Below the pieces are notes generated by a model, which saw only the letters and a list, made by a program, of their open reading frames with translations, did no database searches and was not told the origin of the DNA. From the NCBI GenBank assembly GCA_900299235.1, contig OMIZ01000142.1, positions 1 through 61,281 of the forward strand: DNA of 61,281 nt, given 5' to 3'. The translations under genes and the position numbers were made by a program. Shown here one piece after another: positions 7,279 to 9,574 of the stretch (positions within the stretch are counted from its first letter, which is position 1; every line of letters begins with the position of its first letter). The stretch comes from Actinomycetota bacterium. GTDB taxonomy: Bacteria; Actinomycetota; Thermoleophilia; Gaiellales; Gaiellaceae.

Positions 7279-8976
7279 CTAACGATTGTCGAACAGCGCG
7301 GCGGCAGTTGCAACTGCCTCGCGCGCCGCAATCGCACGGTTGACCGCGTTGAGCACAGCGCGCAGGGAGGCCGTGACGATGCTCGGGTGAAGACCGACTC
7401 CCCAGAACGCCTCGTCGTCGACATCGGCCTCGATATACGCGGCAGCGGTCGCGTCGGCAGACGCAGCCATGGTGTGCTCGTGGTAATCGCGAATCCGTAC
7501 GTTGATCCCGAACGTTGTTGAGATCGCATCGACAAGCGCCGCAATCGGCCCATTGCCGTTGCCGACGATCTCCTGCTCCTCGCCGTTCACGCGCAACTTG
7601 GCGGTGATCGTGTCGTGATCGTTCGCGCTCATGTGCGTGTACGAGACGATCTCGTACGGCCTCGTGTGGGAGAGGTAGTGATCGTGGAAGGCGGCAAGAA
7701 GCTCGTCGGCGGTCAGCTCGTCACCGCGGGCGTCGGTGATCGATTGCACCTTCTGCGCGAAGTCGACCTGGAGGCCGCGGGGCAGATCAAGGTGGTGCTC
7801 TGTCTCCATCAAGTAGGCGACGCCACCCTTGCCCGACTGCGAGTTGACGCGAATGATCGCCTCGTAGGTGCGGCCGAGATCCATCGGGTCGATCGGGAGA
7901 TACGGAACGTCCCACACGCCCGTCTCCGAGCGCTGCTGCGCGTACATCCCCTTCTTGATCGCGTCCTGGTGTGATCCGGAGAACGCCGTGTAGACGAGCT
8001 CTCCGACATACGGGTGGCGCGGGTGCACGGGCAGCTCGTTGCACTCTTCGACGATCCGCTTGGCCTCGTCGATCTGCGAGAAGTCGAGCTCCGGATCGAC
8101 GCCCTGCGTAAGCAGGTTGATCGCGAGCGTGACGATGTCGACGTTGCCGGTGCGCTCGCCGTTGCCGAAGAGCGTCCCTTCGACCCGGTCGGCACCAGCC
8201 ATGAGGCCAAGCTCGGCAGTTGCGACAGCGGTACCTCGGTCGTTATGGGGATGAACCGAGAGCAGGAAGGCGTCGCGATCGGACACATGGCGCTGGAACC
8301 ATTCGAGCCGGTCGGCGTAGATGTTCGGCGGAAATGCCTCCACGGTCGTCGGCAGGTTCAGGATCATCTTGTCCTGCGCCGTCGGGCCCCACTCGGCCAT
8401 GACGGCCTCGCAGATCTCGAGCGCGTAGTCGAGTTCGGTGCCGTGGAAGCTCTCGGGGGAGTACTGGAACATGATCTTCGTGTCGGTCTTCGCAGCGAGC
8501 TGCTTGCAGAGGGCGGTTCCGCGGACGGCGAGGTCGGTGATGCCCGACTTGTCGAGGCGAAAGACGACGCGCCGCTGCGTCTCGGACGTCGAGTTGTAGA
8601 GGTGCACGATCGCCTGGCGAGCACCTTCAATTGCCTCGTAGGTGCGCTCGATCAGCTCGGGGCGCGCCTGCGTGAGAACGGCGATCGTCGTATCGGCCGG
8701 GATCAGATCTTCCTCAATCAGCTTGCGAACGAAGTCGAAGTCGGTCTTCGACGCCGAAGGGAAGCCAACCTCGATCTCCTTGACTCCGAGCTGCAGCAGC
8801 AGGTCAAACATCTTCTGCTTGCGCTCAGCATCCATCGGCTTGACGAGGGATTGGTTGCCATCGCGCAGGTCGGTGGAGCACCAGATCGGCGCATGGTCGA
8901 TCACCGTGTCGGGCCACGTTCGATCGGGCAGCGAGACGGTGGTGTAGGGACGGTATTTCCAGGACGGCATCGGCAT
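7279..8976 (-). CDS. leuA: 2-isopropylmalate synthase
   Basis: 565 aa. Condenses acetyl-CoA with 2-ketoisovalerate, the first committed step of leucine synthesis. The DRE-TIM catalytic barrel begins with CSTDLRDGNQSL, and the metal-binding HPHNDRGTAVA lies mid-barrel; the C-terminal ~130 residues form the LeuA dimer/regulatory domain that binds leucine. Length and the WKYRPY N-terminus match the longer actinobacterial (type II) form. AAGGAG lies 7 nt before ATG and sits in a small CTCC-AAA-GGAG hairpin. The long leader with a leucine-rich ORF upstream suggests attenuation control. No other leu or ilv gene is in the window. Confidence 0.96.
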   Translation of the reverse strand: MPMPSWKYRPYTTVSLPDRTWPDTVIDHAPIWCSTDLRDGNQSLVKPMDAERKQKMFDLLLQLGVKEIEVGFPSASKTDFDFVRKLIEEDLIPADTTIAVLTQARPELIERTYEAIEGARQAIVHLYNSTSETQRRVVFRLDKSGITDLAVRGTALCKQLAAKTDTKIMFQYSPESFHGTELDYALEICEAVMAEWGPTAQDKMILNLPTTVEAFPPNIYADRLEWFQRHVSDRDAFLLSVHPHNDRGTAVATAELGLMAGADRVEGTLFGNGERTGNVDIVTLAINLLTQGVDPELDFSQIDEAKRIVEECNELPVHPRHPYVGELVYTAFSGSHQDAIKKGMYAQQRSETGVWDVPYLPIDPMDLGRTYEAIIRVNSQSGKGGVAYLMETEHHLDLPRGLQVDFAQKVQSITDARGDELTADELLAAFHDHYLSHTRPYEIVSYTHMSANDHDTITAKLRVNGEEQEIVGNGNGPIAALVDAISTTFGINVRIRDYHEHTMAASADATAAAYIEADVDDEAFWGVGLHPSIVTASLRAVLNAVNRAIAAREAVATAAALFDNR

Positions 8977-9002
8977 CGGAAAGCTCCTTTGGAGGCGGAC
9001 TA

Positions 9003-9066
9003 CTCCCTTGGGGCAGGGAGCGCGGACGGGTATGTCAAGCGGTCTCCTCCCCTACCGGGGAAGGAG
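9003..9066 (-). promoter_or_regulatory. Putative leucine-responsive attenuator structure of leuA
   Basis: On the - strand, CTCCTTCCC / GGGGAGGAG forms a 9-bp stem (one U-G pair, 5-nt loop CGGTA). Its 5' arm is the Leu-Leu-Pro codons ending the leader ORF, and the stop codon lies in loop and 3' arm. A second hairpin, CTCCCT-N6-AGGGAG (9003-9020), follows. There is no T-run, so control may act on translation rather than by termination: GGAGG of the first 3' arm can also pair with CCTCC just before the leuA AAGGAG site. Leucine attenuators upstream of actinobacterial leuA are known; this exact structure is my reading. Confidence 0.6.
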
Positions 9067-9186
9067 CAGGCCGAGGCCGAGAAGGTCCGCACCAAGCAGG
9101 GCCGAAAGGGCCGGGAGCTGCGAGGTATGGATCTCACCCATCCCCAAGAGCGTACCGAGAGGGGGCAGGCTTGGCAACGCGGACAC
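9052..9186 (-). CDS. Leucine-rich leader peptide of leuA
   Basis: 44 codons from GTG, ending LLGADLLGLGLLLPR then TAG, 75 nt before leuA. Fifteen of 44 residues are leucine, with a run of three just before the stop. The GTG was chosen because GGAGGA lies 9 nt upstream; a shorter version from ATG at 9141 (29 aa, 10 Leu) has only a weak site, and the 72-aa ORF-track version from 9270 would start at or before the proposed -10. Expected role: ribosome stalling when Leu-tRNA is scarce. It could instead be a chance frame, but its composition, ribosome site and position together make that less likely. Confidence 0.65.
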   Translation of the reverse strand: MSALPSLPPLGTLLGMGEIHTSQLPALSALLGADLLGLGLLLPR

Positions 9187-9259
9187 CGATTCGCGTCCTC
9201 CGACCCCAGGATCGGGCTCGTAGAGGGCGCGAGGCAGAACGAAGACTGGCCACGTCTCG

Positions 9260-9438: not shown

Positions 9439-9450
9439 AACCCGAGAACA
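9439..9450. repeat. Direct repeat copy 1 (AACCCGAGAACA)
   Basis: Twelve-base unit shared exactly with the tandem pair at 9543-9566, 104 nt away. Followed by AA as in those copies. Confidence 0.6.
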
Positions 9451-9542
9451 AAGGCGGTTCGGGGAAAAACCCGCGAACACGAAGCCGAGTTTCGGGGAGA
9501 TTCTCGGAAACTGTCGTTTTGCAGGTTTTTTCTAACTGGTCG

Positions 9543-9566
9543 AACCCGAGAACAAACCCGAGAACA
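9543..9566. repeat. Tandem direct repeat copies 2 and 3 (AACCCGAGAACA x2)
   Basis: Two head-to-tail 12-nt copies just after the PIG-L gene stop. With copy 1 they look like a protein-binding array or part of the operon end; no known motif matched. Confidence 0.6.
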
Positions 9567-9574
9567 ACCGACCC

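Follow-up and report, generated by a model that had tools for sequence, protein, structure and literature searches.

A leucine-rich leader upstream of leuA in Thermoleophilia, with a probable role in the control of translation initiation

The leuA gene, which encodes the first committed enzyme of leucine synthesis, is in an uncultured actinobacterium of the family Gaiellaceae preceded by a short reading frame rich in leucine codons and by a hairpin at its stop codon, and the question is whether, and through which RNA pairing, translation of this leader could control that of leuA. The locus lies on the minus strand of a contig of 61,281 nucleotides (OMIZ01000142.1, assembly GCA_900299235.1), the whole of which is called the window here. 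The original prediction for this DNA was leucine-dependent ribosome stalling that acts on leuA initiation without a terminator; the type of control fits the comparative evidence described below, and two of its parts, a GTG start with a GGAGGA ribosome site and a switch made by the hairpin 3' arm and a CCTCC motif, do not fit it. The features needed to follow the argument as far as the start of the transcript are these:

7279-8976, minus strand: leuA, 2-isopropylmalate synthase, 565 amino acids, of the TIGR00970 type by profile scores (TIGR00970, 791 bits, cut-off 697; NF002991, 862 bits)
8974-9087, minus strand: the whole leader element as modelled by R1, a covariance model of 20 leaders (90.5 bits, E 4e-16, the window being one of the model's own sequences)
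9052-9186, minus strand: the reading frame of 44 codons first proposed, present with its GTG and GGAGGA, its 5' part probably untranscribed
9052-9141, minus strand: leader peptide gene in its likeliest reading, a leaderless ATG at 9141 and 29 codons, MGEIHTSQLPALSALLGADLLGLGLLLPR and stop; the ATG and the C-terminal LLLPR are kept in relatives, and the geometry is that of a leaderless start
9172-9177, minus strand: -35-like hexamer TTGCCA, found with the same 17-nt spacing in L033, L034 and L005, and as TTGCCG in L126
9149-9154, minus strand: -10-like hexamer TACGCT, with a transcription start predicted at about 9141 from the comparison of loci

The longer frame, which runs from GTG 9186 to TAG 9054-9052 and leaves 75 nt between its stop and the leuA ATG at 8976, holds 15 leucines as had been described. 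The enrichment is not due to chance, whether the 15 of 44 codons (binomial p about 2e-6) or the 10 of 29 in the shorter frame (p about 9e-5) are set against the leucine frequency in LeuA, and leucine makes up 82 of the 180 residues encoded by the last 12 codons of the leaders. The GGAGGA is absent from both relatives with a 96% identical LeuA; in one of them (L128) upstream homology starts only at TTGCCA, with no counterpart of GTG 9186 and unrelated sequence farther upstream. The start codon and ribosome site first proposed are, by this comparison, probably wrong. The TTGCCA-N17-TACGCT pair sits within the frame that was proposed, and a TAnnnT hexamer stands 6-10 nt ahead of an in-frame ATG or GTG in 20 of 20 non-redundant loci, as against one of 23 out-of-frame ATG or GTG codons in the same stretches (Fisher p 2e-11). 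From this geometry the window transcript is predicted to begin at ATG 9141. A stricter promoter consensus scan left the TACGCT promoter of the window unscored (8 of 12, threshold 9), so that the leaderless assignment rests on the comparison of loci. A transcription start near 9253 had been expected, and one downstream of 9186 had been named as evidence against the proposal; the promoter-like pair points instead to about 9141, and with it the GTG/GGAGGA start falls, whereas the regulatory core stays. Upstream of this promoter lie three exact copies of ACCCGAGAACAA (9440-9451, 9544-9555 and 9556-9567, two of them in tandem), and as many copies within one mismatch occurred in 1 of 100 shuffles.

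Conservation in related genomes, the lack of which would have spoken against the original prediction, was found: the leader is kept in at least 21 other leuA loci of Thermoleophilia, and precedes leuA in relatives whose LeuA shares 96%, 78-81% and about 60% identity with that of the window. Altogether 22 leuA loci from three families carry it, or 20 after two near-copies are dropped; most derive from metagenome-assembled genomes, and the record titles of the relatives read Actinomycetota or Thermoleophilia. Within the family the search pattern (CCCC-NS-TAR-GGG ... ACATA) matched 17 of 103 genomes, against zero control matches, and within the class 20 of 399, against five; three further loci came from LeuA homology. 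Directly behind the leader, 19 of the 20 pattern-matched genomes have leuA or, in L129, a leuA cut off by the end of the contig; the matches in genome G579 (L136 and L137) have no LeuA behind them and were set aside as false positives. As judged from these searches, the leader form appears specific to the class. The Rfam search of the leader returned no family, its two miRNA hits being below the gathering scores and on a different stretch, and no curated covariance model of leader or T-box families matched it.

Between the Leu codons and the leuA start codon, the following RNA elements come into play:

9044-9066, minus strand: stop hairpin over the last leader codons and the stop, its UCCCC/GGGGA core kept in nearly all of the 20 loci
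9061-9067, minus strand: 5' strand of the base stem, GCUCCUU, made of the CTC and CTT Leu codons and the last base of CTG
8983-8989, minus strand: 3' strand of the base stem, AAGGAGC, which includes the leuA Shine-Dalgarno (SD) GGAG, placed by self-match tests and the window fold
9003-9020, minus strand: internal hairpin CUCCCU-GCCCCA-AGGGAG, seen by inspection and given no score by RNAalifold
8991-8995, minus strand: CCTCC beside the SD, predicted to form the weak local hairpin CUCC-AAA-GGAG with it once the base stem is open
9031-9035, minus strand: ACAUA box, mostly unpaired, in all 16 same-type leaders found by LeuA homology alone

The stop hairpin (9066-9044, CUCCUuCCCC-GGUA-GGGGAGGAG) has the nine pairs that had been claimed, with one bulged U, and contains the Leu-Leu-Pro codons and the stop. 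Together with the Leu tail it recurs in the 22 leuA loci and it is chiefly this hairpin that RNAalifold recovers from the sequence alignment; since its core is nearly invariant, it offers little covariation evidence. The internal hairpin is, by inspection, constant in position and variable in sequence (CGCACC/GGUGCG in G049, GCAGG/CCUGC in G133, CGCCC/GGGCG in G158). The ACAUA box is invariant in the window's group amid varying flanks, its conservation being scored solely on the 16 leaders found by homology because the search pattern itself includes ACATA. A pairing of the box with the leuA start codon ranked among the top pairs when 761 region pairs were scanned in an exploratory way (z about -3) and fails on multiplicity; for a role as antisense -10 or internal promoter, no partner hexamer was seen by eye.

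Which of the possible pairings carries signal was assessed from duplex energies, each Leu tail (taken as the last 36 nt ahead of the stop) being paired with the SD region of its own locus and with the SD regions of the other loci, a procedure that preserves the base composition of each side, not phylogeny, and whose energies ignore intramolecular competition. Own pairs are the more stable (-19.7 versus -17.7 kcal/mol; p = 0.0002, n = 20 loci), and the preference persists when the set is thinned for relatedness to 15 loci (p = 0.0013), where two control region pairs gave p values of 0.29-0.79. The pyrimidine-rich Leu codons pair somewhat with any SD, and the signal lies in the margin by which own pairs surpass cross pairs; under synonymous shuffling of the Leu tail it amounts to a z of only -2.45, with nearly all single loci non-significant. 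The stop-hairpin arms, too invariant in the window's group for this procedure, gave p values of 0.54 and 0.26. As far as comparison and modelling go, the pairing of the Leu codons with the SD is the one that carries the evidence.

Folding with a ribosome represented by masking, which is a crude model of it, points the same way. In the free window leader the SD GGAG is predicted to be paired with the Leu codons at 0.80 (base stem, 80%), a value that goes to 0 when a ribosome is masked onto these codons. With the A site at CUC or CUG the SD would lie mostly in a weak local hairpin, CUCCAAAGGAG; with the A site at CUU it would pair with another leader segment. On average over the 20 loci, opening the SD costs 7.3 kcal/mol in the free leader, 4.9 kcal/mol when the ribosome sits on the Leu codons and 8.0 kcal/mol with an early stall (Leu versus early, p = 3e-5); in six of the 20 masking lowers the cost by no more than 0.5 kcal. 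A ribosome at the stop codon also opens the stem, at an intermediate cost of 5.6 kcal/mol, and discrimination must therefore come from the dwell time of the ribosome.

The leader is a real feature, from which we infer the mechanism: a leucine-responsive element that probably controls the initiation of leuA translation. Transcription would begin at or beside the ATG of the 29-codon leader, which would be read leaderless. With enough leucine, ribosomes would clear the terminal CTG CTC CTT codons and depart, leaving these to pair with AAGGAGC and prevent initiation. Under a shortage of charged tRNA-Leu, a ribosome waiting on the Leu codons would cover the 5' strand of the base stem and free the SD, leaving it just in the weak local hairpin noted above, which a 30S subunit could open. 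The stop hairpin and the internal hairpin, both inside the base stem, probably hold its two strands near each other. This course of events is supported by the conservation of the leader, the base-stem self-match, the leaderless geometry, the absence of a terminator and the modelled effect of masking; stalling, the role of leucine and the direction of control are what we infer from them. The main reason for restrained confidence in the mechanism lies in Streptomyces coelicolor, where mutations of the leuA leader were described as 'not consistent with classical attenuation' (PMC1262725).

The same kind of leader also stands before a second type of LeuA. When R1 was used to search the class, it found further copies ahead of proteins with about 25-33% identity to the window LeuA; the three that were scanned reach 522-682 bits against TIGR00973 (one, incomplete, below the cut-off) and 109-117 bits with TIGR00970. 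One such locus, L022 (1347-1482), belongs to the window's own genus; the others are L014, L015, L018, L019, L020, L021, L079-L082, L084-L086, L088, L140, L142 and L143. Leaderless geometry is found in 15 of 18 second-type leaders, in which the ACAUA box is swapped for a GACACCC-like sequence or missing. Their base stem shows self-preference (p = 0.0034), reduced to p = 0.042 in a set thinned to 14, in which one control reached p = 0.043; with a control as strong as the signal, the second set is supportive and no independent proof.

Other readings of the same RNA have to be set against the proposed mechanism. According to the original prediction, a stalled ribosome would free the 3' arm of the stop hairpin, which would pair with CCTCC and so expose the SD. 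The GGAGG/CCUCC complementarity that this takes is present, and CUCC is able to pair with the SD GGAG, but the partners show no self-match (p = 0.20 and 0.31) and CCTCC is not conserved in the relatives; moreover, in the window fold the pairing (0.34) coexists with the SD-blocking stem only and is at about 0.01 with the ribosome on the Leu codons, which makes such a switch quite improbable. That a Leu-rich frame in GC-rich DNA merely happens to lie among unremarkable hairpins would agree with the modest strength of single pairings and with the unremarkable fold of the 111-nt core (z -0.9), but is hardly credible given the strict conservation of position, C-terminus and promoter geometry over 22 loci and a z of -2.9 for the folded 241-nt leader.

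Transcription attenuation, by which leader translation would decide on intrinsic or Rho-dependent termination before leuA, finds its arguments outside the window. In the sister genus g11 (L059 1433-1450, L060 and L061), a Leu leader ending in SLA[AT]AG (...SQTLLLSLATAG and stop) is followed by a hairpin and a T run before leuA, and an intrinsic terminator was scored in L059; on its sequence, the g11 leader is an instance of transcription attenuation within the window's family. Short Leu leaders (MNRRELLLLT, for instance) whose stop lies at a hairpin likewise precede leuA loci (L107-L116) of Acidimicrobiia type, a label taken from leader and LeuA sequences alone. A T-run terminator was scored in the two leaders scanned, L059 of g11 and L109 of the Acidimicrobiia type. 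The leuA-leader RNA of Mycobacterium tuberculosis also gives short bands, which were read as attenuation (PMC3526491). However, as the original prediction had it, there is no T run: no terminator-like site was found on the leuA strand of the window, and none was seen in the other same-type loci, so that attenuation is unlikely here. Across the phylum, Leu-leader control of leuA thus appears to act on transcription in some lineages and on translation in others. Two of the Acidimicrobiia-type leaders carry CACATAYYC, which resembles the ACAUA box, in a hairpin loop. Outside the phylum, Leu-rich leaders (MQFINILLLLLPALLRDSTVVEIGEF; MMCAKNLLSFLLLTLLRELTVARPGVF) were seen before leuA of Deltaproteobacteria/Desulfocapsa (L038 1265 and L057 1263), followed, by eye, by an apparent T-run terminator. 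Finally, a protein or another ligand might bind the folded leader, perhaps at ACAUA, and set access to the SD, the Leu codons then mattering as sequence. The invariance of the box amid changing surroundings agrees with this, and a regulatory protein was favoured for LEU elements by Seliverstov et al. in 2005 (PMC1262725), the helicase ML1624 being a candidate LEU binder; yet the Leu run is retained immediately ahead of the stop in peptides that otherwise differ, and in the frame of a leaderless start, features for which a site acting purely as RNA would have no use, and the box is missing or altered before the second LeuA type. A binder of this sort is accordingly thought very unlikely to account for the element.

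If control of initiation by pairing of the Leu codons with the SD is retained, leucine-leader control of translation would extend to the largely uncultured class Thermoleophilia, and a covariation-type argument would be at hand for the Leu codons as the anti-Shine-Dalgarno proper, a question that has accompanied the LEU element since 2005. A broader proposal is put forward tentatively, at less than even chances: the leaders would form one control cassette throughout Thermoleophilia, whose RNA architecture, with the Leu codons as anti-SD and the stop placed within a hairpin that hardly varies, would be unlike that of the LEU element as published. The cassette would serve either of two non-orthologous 2-isopropylmalate synthases (of the TIGR00970 and TIGR00973 types), the leader being kept or moved as the enzyme was swapped; sister lineages would use a transcription terminator instead, and the ACAUA box would be a further recognition site of the cassette. 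With the same leader type before two unrelated LeuA proteins and terminator versions in sister lineages, a switch between translational and transcriptional attenuation becomes testable by comparison.

Among known systems, the closest is the LEU element described upstream of leuA in Actinobacteria, with a Leu-run leader, a pseudoknot and a base stem between the Leu codons and the leuA SD (Seliverstov et al. 2005, PMC1262725). The window leader shares with it the place upstream of leuA in an actinobacterium, the Leu-run leader peptide, the lack of a terminator and the base stem, which overlaps the translation start site; with leader and base stem both found, it is read from comparison and folding as working like a LEU element. 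The Thermoleophilia form differs in that the Leu run stops directly inside a CCCC-N4-GGGG hairpin and in its invariant, mostly unpaired ACAUA, LEU elements being described as having no conserved unpaired nucleotides. When a pseudoknot was looked for by the scan of 761 region pairs, the base stem stood out coherently and no clear crossing helix was seen. R1 had no significant match on Streptomyces- and Mycobacterium-type leuA leaders, labels given from the leader peptides and the resemblance of LeuA, and stayed below threshold on Acidimicrobiia leaders (E 0.7-5.7). The leuL1 leader of Streptomyces lividans (MRFGLLLLSCRGEGL) is likewise a Leu leader before leuA, reported as leaderless by RNA-seq and without a typical Rho-independent terminator (PMC8079986), but its peptide runs several codons past the Leu run and the downstream RNA is different. 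Ribosome-mediated transcription attenuators (leuL, trpL, ilvL) have in common with the window a leader peptide enriched in the amino acid that regulates and hairpins at the control codons, but in the window there is no terminator before leuA and the SD is the sequestered element. The mycobacterial polycysteine attenuators (Canestrari 2020, cited in PMC13236596), likened here by title alone, are also leaderless actinobacterial short reading frames with amino-acid-sensing codons, for cysteine and not leucine. From its sequence, the window leader is best described as a variant of the known actinobacterial leucine switch.
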